A DNA stretch of 64,000 bases. Origin: Streptomyces sp. R44 (GTDB taxonomy: Bacteria > Actinomycetota > Actinomycetes > Streptomycetales > Streptomycetaceae). Of the stretch, positions 12,471 through 22,376 are shown in pieces. The position numbers and the translations under genes are program-made. The notes beneath the pieces are model-generated. The model had not been told where the DNA came from and ran no database searches. It saw nothing but the letters and a program-made list of their open reading frames with translations. The DNA lies in contig NZ_CP163444.1 of the NCBI RefSeq assembly GCF_041053105.1, positions 2,480,001-2,544,000 of the forward strand, in the 5' to 3' direction. Positions within the stretch are counted from its first letter, which is position 1. Each line of letters opens with the position of its first letter.

Positions 12471-13174
12471 ACGCGGCGCCGGACCTTGGTCCAGCGCCTG
12501 TCGTGGCGGTACGTACGGATCCGGGAGCGGGCCCTGGCCCGGTGGCGGTTCCGGTAGAAGCGCCTGGACCACCAGGAGCCCGGGCGGGCCAGCCGGACGG
12601 CGCCGACGATCGCCACGAACGGGACGAGGGCCCCGAACACGGCCATCCGGAACTTCCCCTTCACCAGGGTGACCAGGATGAGGAGGAAGTTCAGCGCGAG
12701 GGTCAGGATGAAGGTGACCCGGTCCTGCTGCTCCTCGGCGGTCATGTCGTTGACGCCGAGCGGCGAGAAACCGCTGAGCGTGAGCCCCACGAGGGCGGTG
12801 GTGAGCACGACCACCTCGACGCTCTTGCGGCCGTCCTCCGACCAGTACACGTCGTCGAGATGGAGGATGAGCGCGAACTCGTCCAGGACGAGCCCCGCGC
12901 CGATCCCGAACACGACCGCGAAGATCGCCCCGCCGGCGCCGTGCCGGTCGCTGGCCACGGCGCCGAAGCCGCCGAGGATCGTGAGGACGACGCCCGGCAC
13001 GACGTGATGGATGTGGACGCCTCCGGAGGAGACGTTCCGGAAGGGCCCCTTCCCCGCCCGGATGAGCCGGGTGACGGTGCGGGTGACCAGGAATGTCAGG
13101 ACGAAGGAGGTCAGAGCGAGCAGCATCGGAAGCTTGCCCGGCTCGACGATGTTGCGGGAGAACCAGTGACCCAT
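12407..13174 (-). CDS. Integral membrane protein of unknown function
   Basis: This ~255-residue protein starts MGHWFSRNIVEPGKLPML and has about six hydrophobic segments. Between them is a His-rich SSGGVHIHHVVPGVVLTILG segment, an acidic FALILHLDDVYWSEDGRKSV segment, and an EEQQDRVTFIL stretch. The C-terminus is very basic (RNRHRARARSRIRTYRHDRR). The pattern of His and Asp in helices suggests a metal-binding membrane enzyme or transporter, but I do not recognise the family. It is convergent with, and overlaps, the rhomboid-like gene by 64 bases. I used the internal ATG at 13174 because upstream codons read into the cobS promoter. Confidence 0.8.
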   Translation of the reverse strand: MGHWFSRNIVEPGKLPMLLALTSFVLTFLVTRTVTRLIRAGKGPFRNVSSGGVHIHHVVPGVVLTILGGFGAVASDRHGAGGAIFAVVFGIGAGLVLDEFALILHLDDVYWSEDGRKSVEVVVLTTALVGLTLSGFSPLGVNDMTAEEQQDRVTFILTLALNFLLILVTLVKGKFRMAVFGALVPFVAIVGAVRLARPGSWWSRRFYRNRHRARARSRIRTYRHDRRWTKVRRRVQDLIGGFQERVPGRGSTPPS

Positions 13175-13241
13175 GCCACCCCGTTCCGATATGCGCGGTA
13201 TGCGCAATCTACCGTCCCGGGGCGGCGATTACCCTGCCCGG

Positions 13242-14006
13242 ATGGACGGCCTGCGTTTCGCCTTCGGGACCCTCACCGTGTTCCCCGCCCGCATCACCCG
13301 CTGGGACCGGGACGCGGCGCGCGCCGGCATGCTCTCGGCCCCGCTCGCCGGCCTGGCCGTCGGGCTCTGCTCCGCCGCGGCCGGCGGTCTCTTCCTGCTG
13401 CTCGGCTCGGGCCCGCTGCTCGCGGCCGTCGCCGCCACCGCCGTCCCCGCCCTGCTCACCCGGGGCCTGCACCTCGACGGCCTCGCGGACACCGCCGACG
13501 GCCTCGGCAGCGCCAAGCCGGCCGAGGACGCGCTGCGCATCATGAAGCAGTCGGACATCGGCCCGTTCGGCGTCATCGCCCTCGTCCTCGTGCTGCTCGC
13601 CCAGGTCGCCGCGCTGTACGAGCTGTACGGGGAGGGCTGGGCGCACGGCACCGTCGCCGCCGCCCTCGCCGCCACCGTCGCCCGCCTCGCCCTCACCCAC
13701 GCCTCCCGGCACGGCGTCCCGGCCGCCCGCCCCGAGGGCCTCGGCGCGATCGTCGCCGAGACGGTCCCGACCCGGTCCGCGACCCTCACGACCGCCCTGG
13801 TCCTGGTCCTCTGCGCCACGGCGGGCCTCCTGCTCTCCCCGTACGACGCCGTCCGCTCGGTCCTCGCGGCCGGTGCGGGCCTCGGTGCGGCGGCGGTGCT
13901 GCTCCGGCGGTGCGTGCGGCGCTTCGGCGGGGTGACGGGCGATGTGTTCGGCGCGGTGGAGGAGACGGCGGCCACGGCGGCGCTGATCGCGCTGACGCTG
14001 GGTTAA
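13242..14006 (+). CDS. cobS: Adenosylcobinamide-GDP ribazoletransferase (cobalamin synthase)
   Basis: CobS joins adenosylcobinamide-GDP to alpha-ribazole in the last part of cobalamin synthesis at the membrane. The product is ~254 residues, starting MDGLRFAFGTLTVFPARITR. It carries the family signature TRGLHLDGLADTADGLGSAK, whose Asp residues bind Mg2+, and the MKQSDIGPFGVIALVLVLLA segment. Several membrane helices follow. It is read away from the membrane protein at 12407-13174, and its stop overlaps the stop of the GH114 gene by four bases on the opposite strand. With CobU and CobT nearby, all late-assembly enzymes lie within 6.5 kb. Confidence 0.95.
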   Translation: MDGLRFAFGTLTVFPARITRWDRDAARAGMLSAPLAGLAVGLCSAAAGGLFLLLGSGPLLAAVAATAVPALLTRGLHLDGLADTADGLGSAKPAEDALRIMKQSDIGPFGVIALVLVLLAQVAALYELYGEGWAHGTVAAALAATVARLALTHASRHGVPAARPEGLGAIVAETVPTRSATLTTALVLVLCATAGLLLSPYDAVRSVLAAGAGLGAAAVLLRRCVRRFGGVTGDVFGAVEETAATAALIALTLG

Positions 14007-14818
14007 CCGCCGGACCGGCAGGGCTCGCGCCACGCGTCGAGCGCGTACCGCTTCCGCATCGAGCTGAGGCCCAGCTTCCTCGCCTGGGGGCAGAACTGGT
14101 CGGTCGTCCGTTCGTACTCGACGTGGAAGACGGCCTTGCCCGCCGCCACGAACGGCGCGAGACGGCCGCACTCGTCGTACTCGGCGCACTGCTCGTTGAC
14201 CGCGAAGTCGAAGTCCGGGAGCAGCTTCGGGATCTGGTCCAGGTCGTTCTTGAGGCCGACCGCGAGGCCCCGGTCGTGGGCCATGGTCGCGATGAGGCGG
14301 TTGTAGCGGAGCTGGTCGGCGGCGGTGAGGGGGAATCCCGTGCGGTTCTTGTAGCCGTCCATGTTGTCGGGTTCGACGGCGTCGAAGCCCTTGTCCCGGC
14401 ACATGTCGAGGCGCTTCGCCATGAGCGGTCCGAGGAGGTCGGTGCGGCGGATGTCGAGCCAGCGCTCGCCGTCCCAGCCGTTGCCCTCGCCGAGGAGGCC
14501 CTTCGGGAAGTCGTCGGCGTCGGGGCGGAAGTCCTCCCAGGCGCCCGTGGACAGATAGCAGATGACCTTGCGGCCGCGGCGGTGGAGGTCGGCGACGGTC
14601 GACGCGGGGTGGTCGAAGCCGTCGATGTCGTACACCGGGACGTCGACGGCCGGGTCGAGCCGGCCGCTGAGCTGCCACTGCCAGGCGAGACCGGGGGCGG
14701 GCCGCCAGCGCTGCTCCCCGGTGGTCTTCGGGTCGGGGGCGGGGTCGGGGCCGGGGGCCGCCGTACAGGCCGTGGCGAGCAGGAGGAGCCCCACGAGCGG
14801 CGGCAGCGGTCGTCTCAT
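14003..14818 (-). CDS. GH114 family (endo-alpha-1,4-polygalactosaminidase-like) lipoprotein
   Basis: This 271-residue exported protein has a lipobox-like LLATAC (Cys near residue 18), a short Pro-Asp linker and one catalytic TIM-barrel domain. GH114 hallmarks are WQWQLSGRLD, VYDIDGFDHP, KVICYLSTGAWEDFRPD, the catalytic-region DAVEPDNMDGYKNRTGFPLT and AVNEQCAEYDECGRL. Known GH114 enzymes (fungal Ega3, the hydrolase domain of PelA) cut alpha-1,4-linked galactosamine polymers. It is the last gene of a five-gene operon; its ATG overlaps the stop of the Spherulin-4 gene by four bases. A role in trimming a galactosamine-rich exopolysaccharide is inferred from family and neighbours. Confidence 0.88.
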   Translation of the reverse strand: MRRPLPPLVGLLLLATACTAAPGPDPAPDPKTTGEQRWRPAPGLAWQWQLSGRLDPAVDVPVYDIDGFDHPASTVADLHRRGRKVICYLSTGAWEDFRPDADDFPKGLLGEGNGWDGERWLDIRRTDLLGPLMAKRLDMCRDKGFDAVEPDNMDGYKNRTGFPLTAADQLRYNRLIATMAHDRGLAVGLKNDLDQIPKLLPDFDFAVNEQCAEYDECGRLAPFVAAGKAVFHVEYERTTDQFCPQARKLGLSSMRKRYALDAWREPCRSGG

Positions 14819-15435
14819 CGGGCGGGCTCCAGGAGGTGCGGAAGGGTGCCCCAGGGGTGGGCGCCGGTGCCGGGGACGGCGCAGTGCACCGGGGTGGCCG
14901 GGCGGAAGCCCGCGGGGGCGGCGTACACGAGGTGGCAGTAGTGGGCGGCGACCGGCAGGTCGAGGGTCCGGTACGTGTCCCAGGGGCCCTCGAAGGTGAC
15001 GAGGAGGTCGGCCTGGGCCTCGTAGCCCGGGTCCGGGTGGGCGCCGTGGTTGAAGACGAGGGTCGCGGCCCCGGCGGCCCGGGCGGCGACCGCGATGCGG
15101 CGGTAGTGGGCGAGGGCGGCGGGCGCGGTCGCCACCTGGTCCAGGAAGGCGCCGTCGGCGCCGTACCAGTCGCGGTGGCGGAGCAGTTCGGCGACGGCCT
15201 CGGCGTGCGGGCGGCGGCCGTAGGCGGTGTCCACGTAGCCGAGGACCCGGACCCCGGCGGCCCGCAGCCGTGCGGCGGCCTCGGCGAACGCCGGGTCGGG
15301 CGCGGCACCGGCGCCGCTCGCCGGGTTGAGGACGACGCCGTACAGGGTCGGCGCCGCGTCGACGAGCGCCGACCAGGCCTCGGGGCGTTCGGCCGGGTGC
15401 TCGTAGTACGGCACCAGGAGGGAGGGGTTGGTCAT
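14815..15435 (-). CDS. Spherulin-4 family protein (GH135, Sph3-like)
   Basis: The ~206-residue protein starts MTNPSLLVPYYEHPAERPEA and carries the Spherulin-4/GH135 landmarks VLNPASGAG, VRVLGYVDTAYGRRP, DWYGADGAFLDQVA, LVFNHGAHPDPGY and LLVTFEGPWDTY. Fungal Sph3 of this family is a glycoside hydrolase needed to make galactosaminogalactan. There is no obvious signal peptide at this start, although 15 more residues are possible upstream (MPSWYDRPPTALRDA). It lies 7 bases after the membrane-protein gene and overlaps the GH114 gene by four, so it is embedded in the operon. Localisation is unresolved. Confidence 0.86.
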   Translation of the reverse strand: MTNPSLLVPYYEHPAERPEAWSALVDAAPTLYGVVLNPASGAGAAPDPAFAEAAARLRAAGVRVLGYVDTAYGRRPHAEAVAELLRHRDWYGADGAFLDQVATAPAALAHYRRIAVAARAAGAATLVFNHGAHPDPGYEAQADLLVTFEGPWDTYRTLDLPVAAHYCHLVYAAPAGFRPATPVHCAVPGTGAHPWGTLPHLLEPAR

Positions 15436-15442
15436 GGCGTCC

Positions 15443-16876
15443 CTAAGCGCGGTGGGCGGTCGGTCGTACCAGGAGGGCACAGGTCAGGGCGGCGAGCACC
15501 GCGGCCGCTCCCCCGGCGGCCACCGGGCCCGCCACCGATTCCACGGTCTGCGCCGCCGCCGCGAGCAGGCAGACGGTGGCGGCGCTGAGCACCGCGCCGA
15601 AGGCCTGGAGCAGCAGCCCGAGCCAGAGCACGGTCCCGATCAGGAGCAGGGTGAGCAGGCGCGGGAGCGTCGGCCACGGGACCCCGGGCCAGGCGAGGGT
15701 CGCGGCGAGCGCGAGGGCGAGGAGGACGGTGAGGTAGCCGCCGAGGCAGAGCACGAGGGTGCCGGTGACGGCCCGGCGGAACTCGCGGGCGGTGGTGAGG
15801 GTCCGCAGCCGGGTCAGGCTGCCGTCCCGGAAGCGGTACAGCAGCCATTCCGCCGGCCCCATGGAGAGGGTGAGGGCGATGACCGCCCCCGCGCCGCTCA
15901 CCCTGGTGTCCCCCACGCCCGCGTGGAGGACGAGCAGGCCGCTGCCGAGGCCGAAGAGGCCGTACGGGAGGGAGGCGGCGCGCGGGGGTCCGCCGCGGCC
16001 GCCCGCGTCCCGGCGGAGGCCGGGGCGCAGGACGAGCGCGGCGAAGGCGACGGAGGCGGTGAGCGAGGCGAGGAGGAGCCCGGCGCGCAGGGCGTCCGGC
16101 AGGTCCCAGCGGAAGGCGGCGGCGGCGCCGGTGAGCGGCAGCAGGGCGCAGAGCAGGGCCCGTTCGCGGCCGAGGACGAGGAGCACGGTCGCGGCGGCGA
16201 GGTAGAGCGACTGTCCTGCGGCGAAGACGGCGGCGGGGGTCTCGCCGGGCGCGGCGGTCGCGAGGGCGACGGCCGTCCCGGCGAGGGCGCCGGCCGGGGC
16301 GCCGGTGAGCAGGGCGCGGGCGGCGGCGGGCCGGTCGCCGAGCCCGAGCCAGGTGTACGCGCGGTGGGAGAGGGCCTGGTTCCAGACCCAGCCGGTGACG
16401 GCACCGGCGAGCAGGGGGACGGTCCCGGCGGGGAGCCCGAACCGGCCGTGCCCGCCGGCGAGCAGCGGTGCGGCGAGGACGTACGCGAGGCCGGGGAGCG
16501 CGAAGACGAGGCCGCGCAGCAGACAGCCGGCGAGCTCGCCGTACCAGGCGCCGGAGGGTGGTGCCGCCGGTTCGGGGTGGCGCCGCTCCACGCGCGCGTA
16601 GAGGTCCTCGGCGAGGGAGAAGGAGTCGGCGCGGCCGTAGGTGAGCCGGATGTGCTCGTCGGTCATGCCGTCGGACTCGAGGAGCGCGGCGATCTCGTCC
16701 GGGTGTACGGCGACGGCGACGAACCCGTCGAGCCGCCGGGCGAGTTCGTCGAGCGGATCGTCGGCGAGGCCGCCGCCGTCGGGGGTGCGGGCGGGCTCGG
16801 CCGGCCGGCGCGGGCGCGGGATCGCCGGAAGCGGGGTCTCCGTCTTCGGGGGTGTCAGCCAGAGGGAGCCGCTCAT
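15443..16876 (-). CDS. Polytopic membrane protein of exopolysaccharide cluster (possible PelG-like exporter)
   Basis: The ~477-residue protein has a cytoplasmic N-terminal ~110 residues including a PDEIAALLESDGMTDEHIRL segment, then about twelve hydrophobic helices, and ends near the membrane. Its start overlaps the stop of the pelF-like gene by four bases. Size and topology match PelG, the MOP-fold transporter that works with PelF, or the multi-helix half of fungal Gtb3. Primary-sequence homology to PelG is not obvious to me, so the export role is inferred from context. The helices are very Ala/Leu/Gly rich, which makes family assignment by eye unreliable. Confidence 0.8.
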   Translation of the reverse strand: MSGSLWLTPPKTETPLPAIPRPRRPAEPARTPDGGGLADDPLDELARRLDGFVAVAVHPDEIAALLESDGMTDEHIRLTYGRADSFSLAEDLYARVERRHPEPAAPPSGAWYGELAGCLLRGLVFALPGLAYVLAAPLLAGGHGRFGLPAGTVPLLAGAVTGWVWNQALSHRAYTWLGLGDRPAAARALLTGAPAGALAGTAVALATAAPGETPAAVFAAGQSLYLAAATVLLVLGRERALLCALLPLTGAAAAFRWDLPDALRAGLLLASLTASVAFAALVLRPGLRRDAGGRGGPPRAASLPYGLFGLGSGLLVLHAGVGDTRVSGAGAVIALTLSMGPAEWLLYRFRDGSLTRLRTLTTAREFRRAVTGTLVLCLGGYLTVLLALALAATLAWPGVPWPTLPRLLTLLLIGTVLWLGLLLQAFGAVLSAATVCLLAAAAQTVESVAGPVAAGGAAAVLAALTCALLVRPTAHRA

Positions 16877-18405
16877 GCCCGGGTGCCTCCTGTGGCGAGG
16901 GCCGCGGTGGTACGGCGGGGGGCGGGGATGCGGAGGCGCAGGGGTTCCTGGGGCAGCGGGACCGGGCGCGCCGGGCGGGCGCCCGCCAGTTCGCGGTAGA
17001 TCTGGCGGAAGCCGTCCACCGAGCGGTGCAGGGTGAACTCGTCGATGACCCGCTGCCGGGCGCGGCGGCCGAGTTCGGCGCGGCGGGTGCCGTCCCGGAG
17101 GAGGGCGGAGACGGCGGCGGCCATGACGGCCGGTTCGCGGGGCGGGACGACGATCCCGGTGTCGCCGACGGCCTCCCGTACGCCTCCGACGTCGGTGGAG
17201 ACGGTGGCGCGGCCGCAGGACATGGCCTCGATGAGGGAGAAGGGGAAGCCCTCGCTGATGGAGGAGAGCATGACGACGCTGCCGGCCGCGTAGGCCGAGG
17301 GGACGTCGCTGATCCGGCCCTCGAAGGACACCCCGTCGGTGACGCCCAGCTCGGCGGCGAGCTTCTCCAGGCGGGTCAGGTAGTCCTCGTTCCCGGCGGG
17401 GACCGGGCCGAACAACCGGAGCCTGAGCGAGGGGAGTTCGGCCCGGCAGATCGCGTACGCCCGGATCAGGGTCTCCAGGTCCTTGATGGGGTCGACGCGG
17501 CCGCACCAGCTGAGGGTGGGGGTCTCGGGTTCGGGTCCGGCCTCGGGGAAGAGGGCGGGGTCGACGCCGTTGTAGACCGTGCGGATGCGGTCGGCGGGGG
17601 CTCCGCCGCGCTCCTCCCAGCGCCGGTTGTACTGGTTGCAGGGGGTGATGAGGTCGGCCTTGCGGTAGCCGAGGGTGTTGAGTTCGCGGTAGAAGCCGAG
17701 CATGAGGGCCTTGACGGGCCAGCGTTGCGCTTCGCTGCGGTAGCCGAGGTAGCGCTCGCGGAGGTAGATGCCGTGTTCGGTGAGCAGGAAGGGCACCCCT
17801 TCGAAGTGCTGCGCGGCGAGGGCGGGCAGCGTGGCGAGACCGCTGGAGACGGCGTGCGCCACGCCGCCGCAGGCTATCCGGGCGGCGAGCGGACGCAGGG
17901 CGTGTTCGAGCAGGTCGGTGGCGGTGAGCGCGTCGTGGACGGTGGGCCGGGCCGCGAGCGTGGGCAGGTGCGGCATGGTCCAGATCCACATGAGGGAGCG
18001 CAGGGCCGGCTCGGAGCGGAGGGCGGCGGTCAGCCGTCCCTGCCGGGCGAGTTCGGCGAGTTCGTACAGGCCGGTGCCGAAGTCGCAGCCCGCCTCGGGG
18101 TCGAGGAGGGCGAGCAGGAGGCGCTCGTACGCGTCGAGGAAGCGGCGGCGTTCGCGCCCCCGCAGGGGCCGGCGCACGGCCGGTCCCTGCGGAGGTCCCC
18201 ACAGGGGGTACGCGGTGTGCCGGGTGACGTTGGGCGGCAGCTCCCAGGTGACGGGTTCGCGGCCGCTGCCGGTGAGGGCGAGGATCTCGAAGTCGACCTC
18301 CGGCATGCCACGGACGAGCTGGTCGCACCAGGTGCTGACGCCGCCGTGGACATGCGGGTAGGTGCCTTCGGTGAGCATGGTGACGTGACGGCCACTGCTC
18401 GGCAT
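16873..18405 (-). CDS. pelF: GT4 family glycosyltransferase PelF
   Basis: This 510-residue cytoplasmic glycosyltransferase opens with VTMLTEGTYPHVHGGVSTWC, the characteristic PelF N-terminus. It continues with FLLTEHGIYLRERYLGYRS, a GT-B linker, TVYNGVDPALF, SWCGRVDPIKDLETLIRAY, and the nucleotide-sugar-binding SEGFPFSLIEAMSCG (the E-x7-E motif of GT4), followed by TDVGGVREAVGDTG. PelF polymerises N-acetylgalactosamine-type sugars from UDP donors in Pel-producing bacteria. The C-terminal 35 residues are a Pro/Arg-rich tail. It lies 34 bases downstream of the deacetylase gene and overlaps the membrane-protein gene, so it is part of the same operon. Confidence 0.93.
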   Translation of the reverse strand: MPSSGRHVTMLTEGTYPHVHGGVSTWCDQLVRGMPEVDFEILALTGSGREPVTWELPPNVTRHTAYPLWGPPQGPAVRRPLRGRERRRFLDAYERLLLALLDPEAGCDFGTGLYELAELARQGRLTAALRSEPALRSLMWIWTMPHLPTLAARPTVHDALTATDLLEHALRPLAARIACGGVAHAVSSGLATLPALAAQHFEGVPFLLTEHGIYLRERYLGYRSEAQRWPVKALMLGFYRELNTLGYRKADLITPCNQYNRRWEERGGAPADRIRTVYNGVDPALFPEAGPEPETPTLSWCGRVDPIKDLETLIRAYAICRAELPSLRLRLFGPVPAGNEDYLTRLEKLAAELGVTDGVSFEGRISDVPSAYAAGSVVMLSSISEGFPFSLIEAMSCGRATVSTDVGGVREAVGDTGIVVPPREPAVMAAAVSALLRDGTRRAELGRRARQRVIDEFTLHRSVDGFRQIYRELAGARPARPVPLPQEPLRLRIPAPRRTTAALATGGTRA

Positions 18406-18439
18406 GAGCGGGTTCCCCCCAGGACGTGCTGGTCAGGCG

Positions 18440-20563
18440 TCAGGCGGTCGGGAGCGTGAGGGTGACGGCGGTCTGGAGCGGTTCGGGTGTGGTCCAGGCG
18501 GAGCGGGTGCCCGCGTAGGCCGTCCCGAAGGCGGTGCTGCCGAGCAGGAGCTTCTTCCGCGTGCCCTCGGGGGCGGTGACGGGCACGGTGACGCCGGAGG
18601 GCGCCTTGACGGTGACCGTGGTGCCGATGCGGTAGGCGGTGACCTTTCCGGCGGCGACGGCCTGGTCCCAGGCGGCGCGGCGGCCCAGTTCGGTGCCGAC
18701 GTCCTTCTGGGCCGGGTTCACCAGGGGCGCGTTCGCCGCGAACAGGGCCCGGTAGTCGGCGAGTACGCGGTCGAGGACCGGGTAGAGGAGCCGCTCCTCG
18801 GCGAGGTTCGACTGGTGGACGTAGTGCGGCCGGGGGTCGTTGCCCAGGACGTGGGAGAGGGCGGTGCGGGCCTCCTGCGGCACGATGTGGTCGGCGTAGC
18901 CGGTGGCCGTGGGGAGCGGGGCGGGCAGGCAGGTGGAGGCCGGGTTGGACTCGCAGATCCCGCTGCCGCCGTCGGCGCGGGAGGTGTAGATCCAGTTGTA
19001 CTCATCGGCCATCTCGGCGGCGGTGCCCACGTTGTAGTACACGTTCATCGGGTGGCGGGGCACGGTCTTCGCGGCGCCGGTCCCGACGGGACGCTGCTGG
19101 GGCTCGCGGGAGTTGTCGCTCGCGGTCCACTTCACGCCGTTGTCGGCGAGGGCGCCGGCGAGGTTGGGGTTGTCGACGGGCTGCTGGGGCAGGGTCTTGA
19201 GGCCGGAGTGCTCGCCGGTGACGAGTTCGGAGCGGTCGACGGAGATGCCCTTGCCGACGGCCCAGTTGTGGTTGTCGCGGATCTGGCCGGAGAGCTCGGA
19301 GCGGCTCACCCAGAGGGTGTTGCCCGCGGTGTCCTTGGCGCACTGCCAGGGCACGACGCTGTTGTCCTGGACGCAGCCGAGGAAGGGGTGGGTGTAGGTG
19401 TGATTGATCCACCGGTACTGGGCGCGGTCGGCGACGAGCCGGTCGGTGAGCGCGTCGGTGCCGCCGTGCTCGGTCTTCCACTGCTCGCCCTGGCCGCCGT
19501 TGTAGACCATGTCGAGCGTGAAGCCGGAGGCCTTCTGCCAGGCGGCGGCGTACTGGGCGTCGGCGACGGTCATGCGGATCGGGTCGACGCCCTCGCCGTC
19601 GTCGCCGACGCAGTCGAAGTCGCCGGGGGTGCAGTCGAGCGTCCGGTCCCAGCGGGCGTCGGGGGCGAAGACGTCGTCGACGTGGACGGAGAGGTAGTTG
19701 CGGCTCTGGCCGAGGTGGACGCCCTGGGTGAGCCAGTCGACGATGCCGCGGGCGAGGGCCCGGAACTGCCGCTGGTACTGGTTGTAGGCGAAGGTGACGA
19801 CGAGTTCGCGGCGCCCGTCGGCGGCGTACTCGCCGACGAGGCTGGCCCGGCCGCCGCCGGCGGCGCTGTCGACGGGCACGTCGAGGTAGCTGGTGTAGCC
19901 GGCCCGGGGGCGGCCCGCGTAGCCGTAGCTCTCGGAGATCGTGGGGTCGTTGTCCTCGAAGGTGAGCGCCCCGGCGAGGTAGCGGAAGGGCCCCGCCTGC
20001 CCGGCGGCGGTGACGCCGGCGGTGGTGCCGTCGAGGACGCCGGACCAGCCGCCCTGGTCGGTGTAGTCGAGGCCGACGCCGGGGTGCGACCAGGTGTAGG
20101 CGTCGACCTGCGGGATCCCGAAGGTCCGCTCGTACGTCCGGAGGGCGGTGGCCTCGGCGGAGTCGGGGCCGAAGGCGCTCTCGTGGGGCAGGACGACGCC
20201 CTGGTACTTGGCGCGGGGCCGCCCGTCGACGCTGTCGCTCAGGAAGGCCGTGTCGACGACGGGCCGGTTCGGGTCGTTGAGGTCGATCCTGCGGTACGGG
20301 ACGCCGGAGCCCTTCAGCTCGGCGGTGATCGCCCCGACCGCGCTGCCGCCGTCGTCGACGACGAGGACGGTGAGGTCCACCCGGGGCGCGGTCGCGGCGG
20401 CCGCCTGCGCGGAGGGGACGACGGTGGCGAGCAGCGCGGCGGCGGCGAGGGCCGCGATCCTTCCCGTACGAGGACCGGTACGGGAACCGCCGCGGGGCGC
20501 GGTGCGGGCGCCGGCGGCGGTGCGGCGTGCGGTTCTGGGCGTACGGATTCGGCCGGAGTCCAT
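18440..20563 (-). CDS. Secreted Agd3/NodB-like polysaccharide deacetylase-type protein
   Basis: The ~707-residue protein has a long Arg-rich n-region and a Sec-type signal (IAALAAAALLATVVPSAQA). An N-terminal domain (LTVLVVDDGGSAVGAITAEL onward) may be carbohydrate-binding. The deacetylase core carries the metal Asp pair in NYLSVHVDDVFAPDARW (near residue 295) and a His motif in RWINHTYTHPFLGC (near 388), like the TFDDG and HxxxH motifs of NodB-fold enzymes. The C-terminus resembles a small beta domain. This matches Agd3 (CE18), which deacetylates N-acetylgalactosamine residues. It is the first gene of the five-gene operon. The specific substrate is inferred. Confidence 0.85.
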   Translation of the reverse strand: MDSGRIRTPRTARRTAAGARTAPRGGSRTGPRTGRIAALAAAALLATVVPSAQAAAATAPRVDLTVLVVDDGGSAVGAITAELKGSGVPYRRIDLNDPNRPVVDTAFLSDSVDGRPRAKYQGVVLPHESAFGPDSAEATALRTYERTFGIPQVDAYTWSHPGVGLDYTDQGGWSGVLDGTTAGVTAAGQAGPFRYLAGALTFEDNDPTISESYGYAGRPRAGYTSYLDVPVDSAAGGGRASLVGEYAADGRRELVVTFAYNQYQRQFRALARGIVDWLTQGVHLGQSRNYLSVHVDDVFAPDARWDRTLDCTPGDFDCVGDDGEGVDPIRMTVADAQYAAAWQKASGFTLDMVYNGGQGEQWKTEHGGTDALTDRLVADRAQYRWINHTYTHPFLGCVQDNSVVPWQCAKDTAGNTLWVSRSELSGQIRDNHNWAVGKGISVDRSELVTGEHSGLKTLPQQPVDNPNLAGALADNGVKWTASDNSREPQQRPVGTGAAKTVPRHPMNVYYNVGTAAEMADEYNWIYTSRADGGSGICESNPASTCLPAPLPTATGYADHIVPQEARTALSHVLGNDPRPHYVHQSNLAEERLLYPVLDRVLADYRALFAANAPLVNPAQKDVGTELGRRAAWDQAVAAGKVTAYRIGTTVTVKAPSGVTVPVTAPEGTRKKLLLGSTAFGTAYAGTRSAWTTPEPLQTAVTLTLPTA

Positions 20564-20867
20564 GGCTGGTGTCCCCCCTCGACGGGCCCCGCCCGAACCG
20601 GCGGAACGCGTGGAGATGTCGCAGATGAGGCGAAGAACGGTGTGTCGTCCTTGCGTGAATGAGGCGAGTGTGACCGGGCGACAGAGGCCGGAAGGGTAAA
20701 CATGAAAGAGACACCACGGATGAGTGAATCCCCGCCGCCGTGAGCGAACCGGGCGAGCGAGCGTAGGCTCGTTCTCGGCGCTCTCCGGGCCGAAATACGA
20801 TGCGGCGGGCACGGTCGGCCCATCCCTCGACCGCCACAGAACTCAATGGAAGCGAGATTTCACCACC

Positions 20868-22376
20868 GTGACTGCTCTCACTCTCAGCACTGCCGGCGCG
20901 GCGACGCTGCGCGCCGACGCCCTCGTCGTCGGCGTCGCGAAGTCCGGGAAGACGCTGGTCGTCGCCCCGGGCGCCGAGGCCGTCGACAAGGCCTTCGACG
21001 GCCGGCTCGCCGCCGTCCTGGAGACCCTGGGCGCCTCGGGTGCCGAAGGTGAGGCGACGAAGCTGCCCGCCCCCGCCGGTCTCAAGGCCCCCGTCGTCCT
21101 GGCCGTCGGCCTGGGCGCGGCGCCCGAGGACGGCGAGTCCTTCGGCGCGGAGATCCTGCGCCGCGCCGCCGGCACCGCCGCCCGCACCCTGACCGGCTCG
21201 AAGAAGGCCGCGTTCGCGCTGCCGATCGCCACCGCCGACGACGCCGCCGCCATCGCGGAGGGCGCCCTGCTCGGCGCGTACGCCTACACCGCGTACCAGG
21301 AGAACGGCAAGGACGCGAAGAAGCCCCTCGCCGAGGTGGCCCTGCTCGGTGCCAAGCCGCGCGACAAGGCCCACAAGGCCGCCGCCGAGCGCGCCCAGGC
21401 CGTGGCCGAGGAGATCAACCGCGCCCGCGACCTGATCAACCAGCCGCCGAACGACCTCTACCCGGCCACCTTCGCCGCCGCCGTCCAGGCCGCCGGCAAG
21501 GAGCACGGCCTCAAGGTCCAGGTCCTCGACGAGAAGGCGCTCACCAAGGGCGGCTACGGCGGCATCCTCGGCGTCGGCAACGGCTCCGTGAACCCGCCGC
21601 GCCTGGTCCGCGTCGCCTACACCCACCCGAAGGCGGAGAAGACCCTCGCCCTGGTCGGCAAGGGCATCACCTACGACTCGGGCGGCATCTCCCTGAAGCC
21701 GGCCGGCCACAACGAGACGATGAAGTGCGACATGGCCGGCGCCGCCGCCGTGTTCTCCACCGTCGTCGCCGCGGCCCGCCTCGGCCTGGAGGTCAACGTC
21801 ACGGGCTGGCTCGCCCTCGCGGAGAACATGCCGTCCGGCTCCGCCACCCGCCCGGGTGACGTCCTGAACATGTACAGCGGCAAGACCGTCGAGGTCCTGA
21901 ACACCGACGCCGAGGGCCGGCTCGTCCTCGCCGACGCGATCACCAAGGCCTCCGAGGAGCACCCGGACGCGATCGTCGACGTGGCCACCCTGACCGGCGC
22001 CATGGTCCTGGCCCTCGGTGACCGCACCTTCGGCATCATGGCCAACGACGACGACTACCGGACCGCGATCCACGAGATCGCCGAGGAGGTCGGCGAGCAG
22101 TCCTGGCCGATGCCGCTCCCCGCGGACCTGCGCAAGACCATGGACTCCCCCACCGCCGACATGGCGAACATGGGTGTCCGGATGGGCGGCGGCCTGGTCG
22201 CCGGTCTCTTCCTGCAGGAGTTCGTGGGCGAGGGCATCACCTGGGCCCACCTGGACATCGCGGGCCCCGCCTTCCACGAGGGCGCCCCGTACGGCTACAC
22301 CCCCAAGGGCGGCACCGGCTCCGCGGTCCGCACCCTGGTGAAGCTGGCCGAGCGCACGGCGGCCGGCGAGCTCTGA
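20868..22376 (+). CDS. pepA: Leucyl aminopeptidase (M17)
   Basis: This ~502-residue cytoplasmic M17 metallopeptidase removes N-terminal residues from peptides. The C-terminal catalytic domain shows LVGKGITYDSGGISLKPAG (catalytic Lys and metal-binding Asp), MKCDMAGAAAVFSTV, and NTDAEGRLVLADAI, the family signature. A GTG at 20868 was chosen because the N-terminus TALTLSTAGAATLRADALVV matches actinobacterial PepA; the open frame upstream crosses the promoter region (-10-like TACGAT at 20796-20801). A strong hairpin terminator follows at 22389-22427. It is divergent from the exopolysaccharide operon across 304 bases that hold promoters and no gene. Confidence 0.95.
   Translation: MTALTLSTAGAATLRADALVVGVAKSGKTLVVAPGAEAVDKAFDGRLAAVLETLGASGAEGEATKLPAPAGLKAPVVLAVGLGAAPEDGESFGAEILRRAAGTAARTLTGSKKAAFALPIATADDAAAIAEGALLGAYAYTAYQENGKDAKKPLAEVALLGAKPRDKAHKAAAERAQAVAEEINRARDLINQPPNDLYPATFAAAVQAAGKEHGLKVQVLDEKALTKGGYGGILGVGNGSVNPPRLVRVAYTHPKAEKTLALVGKGITYDSGGISLKPAGHNETMKCDMAGAAAVFSTVVAAARLGLEVNVTGWLALAENMPSGSATRPGDVLNMYSGKTVEVLNTDAEGRLVLADAITKASEEHPDAIVDVATLTGAMVLALGDRTFGIMANDDDYRTAIHEIAEEVGEQSWPMPLPADLRKTMDSPTADMANMGVRMGGGLVAGLFLQEFVGEGITWAHLDIAGPAFHEGAPYGYTPKGGTGSAVRTLVKLAERTAAGEL

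Follow-up and report, generated by a model that had tools for sequence, protein, structure and literature searches.

A five-gene Streptomyces operon with the enzyme types of the Aspergillus galactosaminogalactan cluster

This study used sequence comparison for examining which machinery is encoded by a compact five-gene operon of Streptomyces sp. R44, and whether it resembles the systems that make the fungal polymer galactosaminogalactan (GAG) or bacterial Pel. The window is the whole 64,000-nucleotide stretch of DNA that was analyzed. An earlier note had described five genes on one strand with overlaps or gaps of 34 bases or less; this layout was confirmed, the spacings in gene order being +34, -4, +7, and -4 bases (Table 1). 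The gene set, the protein families, the active-site residues, the signals, and the synteny can be read directly from the DNA. We consider it fairly probable that the operon directs synthase-dependent exopolysaccharide production of the Agd3/GAG kind, with a GalNAc/GalN-type polymer as its predicted product, and the interpretation given in the earlier note was as a whole partly supported.

Table 1. Features of the operon, its surroundings, and a related cluster of the same genome
Feature	Position	Strand	Length	Basis or remark
Five-gene operon	20563 to 14003	-		largest gap 34 bases; overlaps of 4 bases at two junctions
Agd3-like CE18 polysaccharide deacetylase, N-terminal CBM87-like region, signal peptide	18440..20563	-	707 aa	homologue profile versus 6nwz, motif residues
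PelF-type GT4 glycosyltransferase (DUF3492 + GT1)	16873..18405	-	510 aa	NCBIfam PelF NF038011, Pfam DUF3492
12-helix membrane protein, proposed export channel	15443..16876	-	477 aa	hydropathy; family without Pfam or NCBIfam model
N-terminal non-membrane domain of the membrane protein, approximately residues 36-103	16568..16771	-		common to relatives compared
GH135 (spherulin-4) protein without export signal	14815..15435	-	206 aa from ATG	PF12138, Sph3 5c5g, active-site residues
GH114 endo-alpha-1,4-galactosaminidase-like lipoprotein, LLATAC lipobox	14003..14818	-	271 aa	PF03537, Ega3 6oj1
Region between operon and divergent pepA	20564..20867	.		short conserved blocks, e.g., TTCAC and CACACTC (24 type I upstream regions aligned)
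pepA-like leucyl aminopeptidase	20724..22376	+		divergent neighbor conserved by synteny; outside the machine
cobS-like gene	13173..14006	+		convergent neighbor, synteny; outside the machine
Type III cluster of the same genome, beside a moeZ-like gene	L007 10293-15245			PelF-like glycosyltransferase, membrane protein, GH135 paralogue, SDR

Of 121 Streptomyces genomes sampled, 58, or about half, carried the CE18 deacetylase gene, mostly within such an operon, and synteny placed the five-gene set at one shared chromosomal site in many Streptomyces. All five genes were found in 21 of 31 type I loci, that is, loci of the window's kind that occupy its chromosomal site and have 5.5 kb or more of downstream sequence. 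GH114 was missing from nine of the 31; six of these retained the remaining four genes, one retained the glycosyltransferase and the membrane protein next to the deacetylase, and two retained the deacetylase only. One further type I locus carried GH114 and lacked GH135. Among 14 control genomes, Spherulin4 was detected in none, GH114 in two, and DUF3492 in one, and these frequencies together suggest that the gene set is more than a chance association.

The first gene product had been called an Agd3/NodB-type secreted deacetylase. The window protein alone scored 21.7 bits against Agd3_CE (PF25115), under the cut-off of 27.6, and gave no match in the PDB; a profile of this protein and six bacterial homologues matched two stretches of 6nwz, the structure of Agd3, at E 1.3e-50, followed by heparan sulfate N-deacetylases at approximately 4e-9. 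At E<=1e-3, Agd3_CE matched five of the seven profile members and CBM87 matched four. The relation to Agd3 therefore extends across the CBM87 and CE domains, and the earlier assignment was borne out. Passages of PMC7229062 define the CE18 catalytic motifs as CM1 Asp-Asp, CM2 HxxxH, CM3 Arg, and CM4 His, and all four were present (D296, D297, H388, H392, R503, and H583 in window numbering). In the readable part of 148 rows, these residues were conserved in 141/142, 140/142, 142/143, 142/143, 140/141, and 139/139 rows, respectively. At the position of M666, described there as needed for Agd3, 138 of the 139 readable rows have Tyr or Phe, the window having Tyr.

The hydrolase and transferase assignments also proved correct. 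The GH114 protein scored 296.3 bits against PF03537 (cut-off 27), matched the Ega3 structure 6oj1 at E 7.5e-59, and was 47% identical to Ega3 across 203 aa; the catalytic Asp and Glu of Ega3 correspond to D151 and E209, which were kept in all 87 readable rows of 93. In the GH114 tree, Ega3, the single fungal row, lay among actinobacterial rows beside Kocuria and L027 (support 86/77), and with this weak support and the long branches, we do not claim a fungal origin of the set. The glycosyltransferase scored 167.7 bits against the PelF equivalog model NF038011, above the cut-off of 100, and 195.1 bits against DUF3492. Its E-x7-E motif (E385/E393) was kept in all 135 readable rows of 138, and no hydrophobic segment indicative of membrane insertion was found in the protein.

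The spherulin-4 (GH135) identification was likewise sound, with 96.3 bits against PF12138 (cut-off 30.2) and E 2.8e-9 against the Sph3 structure 5c5g; the protein thus carries both the Spherulin4 profile and the active-site Asp and Glu of Sph3. The equivalents of Asp166, Glu222, and the active-site Asn of Sph3 were kept in all 28 type I rows, and the Glu167 position was Gln in all 28. A hydrophobic N-terminus was found in none of 50 Streptomyces GH135 rows by a simple hydropathy test that was positive in 29 of 37 GH114 rows and 36 of 62 CE18 rows and hence misses some real signals; the same test was positive in both Rubrobacter-like GH135 rows. Because no export signal is present, the GH135 protein is probably cytoplasmic. 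The PF12138 match ended at position 170 of 239, and the window protein has 206 aa versus 216-227 aa in 21 of the 27 other type I rows, the short stretch being confined to the window and its nearest kin. A truncated or decaying barrel was rejected as an explanation, since the presumed last strand is present and the shortening is limited to the stretch before it.

The membrane protein, predicted earlier to have approximately 12 helices, displayed 12 hydrophobic segments by averaged hydropathy of a 61-row alignment. It had no family match in Pfam or NCBIfam, and its listed homologues (the best 120 in each of two listings) came from Streptomyces, Micromonospora, Actinoplanes, and relatives. Its N-terminal domain is shared by the type III paralogue, at 44% identity in the local alignment (hhalign 97.7%), and by pelF neighbors of Kocuria, Deinococcus aquaticus, and Thermus. 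The earlier note had proposed a structural comparison of this protein with PelG, which also has 12 hydrophobic segments. Against a PelG profile of three rows, the hhalign probability was 0.2%, and the PelG profile PF16933 had no match in the genome. By sequence, the protein is not recognizable as PelG; the two may share a fold. It lacks relatives with a characterized function.

The likeness to the Aspergillus GAG enzyme set withstood comparison. In passages of PMC4817252 and PMC11356417, that cluster comprises Uge3, Gtb3, Sph3, Ega3, and Agd3, and four enzyme types are common to it and the operon. The Streptomyces operon differs in lacking the epimerase; as the earlier note had stated, it contains no sixth gene, and two GalE matches above the cut-off lie elsewhere in the genome. 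Moreover, Gtb3 is described in those passages as a putative transmembrane glycosyltransferase, whereas the Streptomyces glycosyltransferase and membrane protein are encoded separately. Fungal Sph3 is membrane-bound, whereas the Streptomyces GH135 has no export signal. As a correction to the earlier note, the operon class is already in print: passages of Bamford 2020 (PMC7229062) describe, in silico only, bacterial agd3 operons with a CE18 deacetylase, a cytoplasmic glycosyltransferase, a multi-span membrane protein, and GH114, with spherulin-4 in some Actinobacteria operons. Beyond those passages are the cytoplasmic GH135, the division into types I, II, and III, the membrane-protein family, and a copy flanked by insertion sequences. 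In the open-licence literature, we found no functional test of the product of such a Streptomyces operon.

From these comparisons, we infer the substrate, the linkage, the direction of transport, the role of GH135, and a matrix or biofilm function. The cytoplasmic PelF-type transferase would polymerize a UDP-HexNAc, most likely UDP-GalNAc, supplied by a GalE-type epimerase encoded outside the operon, and the chain would be passed across the membrane by the 12-helix protein. The secreted CE18 enzyme may then strip part of the N-acetyl groups, yielding a cationic, adhesive polymer whose deacetylated stretches could be cleaved by the GH114 lipoprotein on the outer membrane face. GH135 would act on the acetylated chain and, given its lack of an export signal, probably does so where the synthase faces the cytoplasm, as an editor or terminator of the nascent chain. 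This reading is favored by family matches with catalytic residues conserved over many species, by a locus and gene order that recur across Streptomyces, by the 4-base overlaps, and by the characterized enzymes Agd3, Sph3, and Ega3, which are related to three of the five proteins and act on an alpha-1,4-GalNAc/GalN polymer (passages of PMC7229062 and PMC12054363). A Kocuria plasmid that carries these five genes in identical order and the two GalE candidates argue in the same direction. Against it stand the failure to recognize PelD, PelE, or PelG in the operon, a membrane protein without a functionally known relative, the Tyr or Phe at the M666 position, and the loci lacking GH114 or GH135.

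Genes for other nucleotide sugars occur in relatives of type II and in those from Micromonospora and Deinococcus, so the polymer may be built from something other than plain GalNAc. Three related Streptomyces clusters are reported here as new. Loci were assigned to type II when a nucleotidyltransferase or LegB was present, and a LegB-like 4,6-dehydratase, a nucleotidyltransferase, and an SDR occurred together in all 22 of them; two plasmid clusters of Deinococcus, which also have PelF and CE18, contain the same three genes by match or annotation. The LegB-like protein scored 445.6 bits in L026 (cut-off 475) and 478.1 bits, above the cut-off, in Deinococcus aquaticus. The type III cluster of the R44 genome has a PelF-like glycosyltransferase (41% identical), a GH135 paralogue (42%), and a membrane protein that shares the N-terminal domain; the cluster differs in having an SDR and in lacking CE18 and GH114. 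The catalytic Glu was lost in all 30 type III GH135 sequences checked, and GH135 of this type was found in nearly all sampled Streptomyces genomes. The type II genes and the SDR retained in type III are what one would expect if GAG-type enzymes had been adapted to an exported polymer of another sugar, such as a 6-deoxy-HexNAc or mixed chain, or to a glycan that stays attached to the wall or spore instead of forming a loose matrix. We regard this as rather unlikely for the window: its operon lacks the type II nucleotide-sugar genes, LegB matches in the genome are weak, the best at 165.3 bits, and the active sites of its GH114 and CE18 proteins agree with those of enzymes that are specific for alpha-1,4-GalN(Ac).

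With three of five proteins of degradative type, a GH135 that is cytoplasmic by sequence, and an endogalactosaminidase reported from S. griseus (cited in passages of PMC7229062 and PMC12054363), the genes might instead form a scavenging set, in which fungal galactosaminogalactan is degraded by secreted CE18 and GH114 and the oligomers are finished inside by GH135. This is improbable: between the degradative genes stand those for a 12-helix protein and a polymerizing PelF-type transferase whose E-x7-E motif is intact, none of the five belongs by family to sugar importers or exo-glycosidases, and some loci have the transferase and membrane protein but no GH114.

A merely diverged Gram-positive pel operon (pelDEADAFG) is very improbable, for although the transferase exceeds the PelF cut-off, the membrane protein shares its segment number with PelG, and two Rubrobacter-like loci have PelF-PelG-CE18 adjacent, so that Pel and CE18 sets can mix, only the PelF-type gene among pelD, pelE, pelADA, pelF, and pelG was recognized (Pfam/NCBIfam scan of the operon), PelG has no match genome-wide, hhalign finds the membrane protein unrelated, and the deacetylase is CE18 rather than the PelADA/CE26 type. 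Passages of PMC7112168 and PMC13254593 on Bacillus cereus pelDEADAFG indicate a shared PelF-type transferase, extracellular deacetylase, and 12-segment membrane protein; the differences are CE26 there versus CE18 here, and GH114 and GH135 here. The earlier note had also linked the GH114 protein to PelA as a GH114 enzyme, which was mistaken, as the PelA hydrolase is GH166 (passages of PMC12054363).

Returning to an Agd3/GAG-kind operon, we tentatively suggest a further possibility, itself doubtful: the actinobacterial and Deinococcus version may be a separate polymer-export engine, in which a new channel family with an N-terminal cytosolic domain replaces PelG beside PelF, an intracellular GH135-type retaining enzyme edits or releases the nascent chain, type III GH135 persists as a subunit without catalytic activity, and the five genes can move between genera as an IS-flanked cassette. 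The Kocuria plasmid copy lies between two identical inverted insertion sequences, which is new here; no clear target duplication was visible by eye, and we term the cassette IS-flanked only, without claiming transposition. If the operon makes a GalN polymer, old reports of a galactosamine polymer and an endogalactosaminidase in Streptomyces (cited in passages of PMC7229062) would gain genes. The operon also gives bacterial relatives for the mold virulence polymer GAG and a proposed new membrane-protein family for polysaccharide export.

The operon is bordered by a convergent gene that is presumably cobS-like and a divergent gene that we take to be pepA-like. The conserved blocks upstream of the operon, which to our knowledge match no known promoter box, were set aside as operon promoter elements, since they could belong to the divergent pepA promoter. 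The true start of pepA probably lies nearer 20868 than the listed start of its open reading frame.

The five minus-strand genes that the earlier note had described as one operon were confirmed at the positions listed in the table, with a 4-base overlap at two junctions and gaps of 34 and 7 bases at the other two. We take the flanking genes to be lpd, pepA, and cobS. Short blocks between the operon and pepA (window 20564-20867) were conserved over 24 loci of type I, the operon type of the window.

Coordinates of the operon genes in the window and of the paralogous cluster at locus L007
Feature	Position	Strand	Remark
Deacetylase	20563-18440	-	first in transcription order
Glycosyltransferase	18405-16873	-	second in transcription order
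Membrane protein	16876-15443	-	third in transcription order
GH135	15435-14815	-	fourth in transcription order
GH114	14818-14003	-	fifth in transcription order
Type III cluster	L007 10293-15245		same genome as the window, near 5.616-5.621 Mb; beside a presumably moeZ-like gene

The proposed PelF, GH135, and GH114 assignments all held above cut-off. The glycosyltransferase scored 167.7 bits against the PelF equivalog model (cut-off, 100), and GH135 and GH114 exceeded the Pfam cut-offs by wide margins, matching in sequence the structures of Sph3 (E 2.8e-9) and Ega3 (E 7.5e-59), respectively. The Agd3-type assignment of the deacetylase stood at the profile level but not for the single sequence, which yielded no match in a PDB search and only a sub-threshold Agd3_CE match in Pfam. 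A seven-row alignment with its bacterial relatives matched Agd3 at 1.3e-50 in two stretches covering both halves; the next-ranked matches were heparan sulfate N-deacetylases, at approximately 4e-9. Among the seven rows, Agd3_CE was found at E<=1e-3 in five and CBM87 in four. In the Deinococcus and Thermus clusters the deacetylase passed the Agd3_CE cut-off, and the Kocuria enzyme fell below both cut-offs. The catalytic residues of Agd3 named in PMC7229062 were retained in the window deacetylase, with Tyr at the M666 position.

Three of the five proteins belong to families with tested members acting on an alpha-1,4-GalNAc or GalN polymer. Together with a polymerising glycosyltransferase and a 12-helix protein, these families suggest, as the simplest reading of the sequence, that the operon makes and exports a polymer resembling fungal galactosaminogalactan (GAG) or Pel. 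Two GalE matches above cut-off in the same genome could supply UDP-GalNAc. According to PMC7229062 (Bamford et al. 2020), bacterial agd3 lies in operons with a glycosyltransferase and a multi-span membrane protein, GH114 is a consistent partner, and spherulin-4 occurs in some of the operons from Actinobacteria; the window operon therefore belongs to a described class. The same source discusses galactosamine polymers of Streptomyces, and Gram-positive pel operons are treated in PMC7112168. The earlier description of PelA as GH114 plus deacetylase was incorrect, its hydrolase being GH166 (PMC12054363). The membrane-protein family, the location of GH135, the division into types I, II, and III, and the Kocuria copy are added here, being absent from the available portions of these three papers.

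The deacetylase was present in 58 of 121 Streptomyces genomes and in only 10 of the 296 genomes of a phylum sample, four of the ten being among its nine Streptomyces. In a named collection, at least 485 stretches encoded relatives, and the best 80 of these were all from Streptomyces. From 54 of these 58 positive genomes, 64 loci entered the analysis. Omitted were the genome of the window itself, three others in which hits were partial or not retrieved, and some additional fragments. Type I, at the lpd-pepA site, accounted for 37 loci, 31 of which had at least 5.5 kb downstream. All four further genes were found in 21 of the 31, GH114 alone was missing in six and GH135 alone in one, only the glycosyltransferase and membrane protein accompanied the deacetylase in one, and the deacetylase stood by itself in two; a gene was scored as missing when no open frame of 80 codons or more matched it. 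We found cobS in 85 of 100 type I loci with at least 5.5 kb downstream, drawn from overlapping named and unnamed sets, so that this and the residue counts spanning both sets are not independent. In two genus-sample genomes (L046 and L061), the deacetylase alone lay between pepA and cobS, an arrangement suggestive of loss of the other operon genes.

Type II loci, at other sites, were recognised by a nucleotidyltransferase or LegB-like (4,6-dehydratase) gene. All 22 carried the glycosyltransferase, membrane protein, GH135, LegB-like dehydratase, nucleotidyltransferase, and SDR, and 13 additionally carried GH114. Four of the remaining loci fitted neither type, and the last was truncated. Counted by genome, 27 had only type I, 13 only type II, nine both, four other loci, and one type I plus the truncated locus. 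The dehydratase, nucleotidyltransferase, and SDR accompanied CE18 and PelF in Streptomyces type II (L026, L077, and others) and in Deinococcus; a Micromonospora-like locus (L028) had the nucleotidyltransferase and SDR with the CE18/PelF set. The LegB set possibly provides a second sugar, so that polymers of this family may differ in sugar. LegB matches in the window genome were not strong, reaching 165.3 bits at best, versus 445.6 for the type II protein.

No family was found for the membrane protein in Pfam or NCBIfam, and when 61 aligned members were compared with Pfam, every family matched at most one at E<=0.1. Hydropathy averaged over the 61 members revealed 12 segments, beginning with one at residues 124-142, and three PelG rows likewise gave 12. 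A comparison of profiles against the PelG alignment of three rows detected no relation (0.2%). The N-terminal part is a signature common to the family and is present in a paralogue elsewhere in the genome. It was detected by hhalign in the pelF-adjacent genes of Kocuria (96.8%, 185 columns) and Deinococcus aquaticus (98.3%, 313 columns), and in that of Thermus brockianus the N-terminal part alone matched (91.5%, 66 columns). PelG proper was rare, exceeding the cut-off in three of the 296 phylum-sample genomes. In two of these three (L030 and L031, Rubrobacter-like by our guess), PelF, PelG, and CE18 were contiguous, with a GH135 gene nearby on the opposite strand, and PelG there holds the place filled in the window by the new family. 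The arrangement is mixed Pel/GAG, and its GH135 has a signal segment.

By sequence, a hydrophobic signal segment is present in the deacetylase and a lipobox in GH114. In a simple hydropathy test, a hydrophobic N-terminus of GH135 was found in none of 50 Streptomyces rows, versus both Rubrobacter-like rows, two rows with unclear starts being omitted. The same crude test detected one in 29 of 37 GH114 rows and only 36 of 62 CE18 rows; it misses genuine signals because many start positions are unsure. A second support is that the GH135 start codons directly precede the conserved first strand, and the Kocuria copy also lacked a signal. Whereas the fungal enzyme is membrane-bound, the window GH135 has no apparent export signal, which is the main mechanistic surprise.

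The paralogous type III cluster encodes a PelF-like glycosyltransferase, a membrane protein sharing the N-terminal domain of the window protein, an SDR, and GH135, and neither CE18 nor GH114 was found among its genes. Its GH135 found a match in 115 of 121 Streptomyces genomes; the best match reached E<=2e-44 and at least 53% identity in 113, which were assigned to type III by sequence. In the 30 top-scoring sequences, which include that of the window genome, the acid/base Glu (Sph3 E222) was replaced by Ser in 21, Ala in five, Cys in two, and Thr in two, and the nearby Asn by Gly in 28 and Ala in two. Both residues were retained in type I (28/28) and type II (21/21). With the matched Glu set as E222, the Asp was calculated to be residue 166; the Asp196 printed in PMC12054363 is incompatible with this spacing. 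The type III cluster thus seems to retain a GH135 in which hydrolysis is not expected, suggesting that the protein serves the synthase as a structural or regulatory component.

The deacetylase was matched in 13 plasmid records, of which six regions were inspected. A complete type II operon was found on a linear plasmid of Streptomyces californicus, the one record inspected out of four of this kind, and a Burkholderia stagnalis plasmid had the deacetylase without such neighbours. Two Deinococcus plasmids encoded PelF followed by a hypothetical protein, with a 4,6-dehydratase (478.1 against LegB in D. aquaticus; cut-off, 475), nucleotidyltransferase, SDR, CE18, and annotated endo-polygalactosaminidases. 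On a Thermus brockianus plasmid, CE18 and PelF were accompanied by the membrane protein and by an annotated endo-polygalactosaminidase, the latter two separated by a 234-aa protein (L223 11956-12660) with no Pfam family and no signal peptide. This protein occupies the GH135 position, and by eye its Asp and Glu motifs resemble this glycosidase clan. The Kocuria rosea plasmid NZ_CP126484.1 (L221 8544-17880) carried the window's five gene types in identical order, with identities of 43, 42, 27, 29, and 56% in gene order (membrane protein over 148 aa only). The set was flanked by two 944-nt inverted arms that are 100% complementary and both carry one and the same transposase gene (107.3 bits against an IS5-family model; below the cut-off of 140), and looks like a candidate composite transposon on a mobilizable plasmid.
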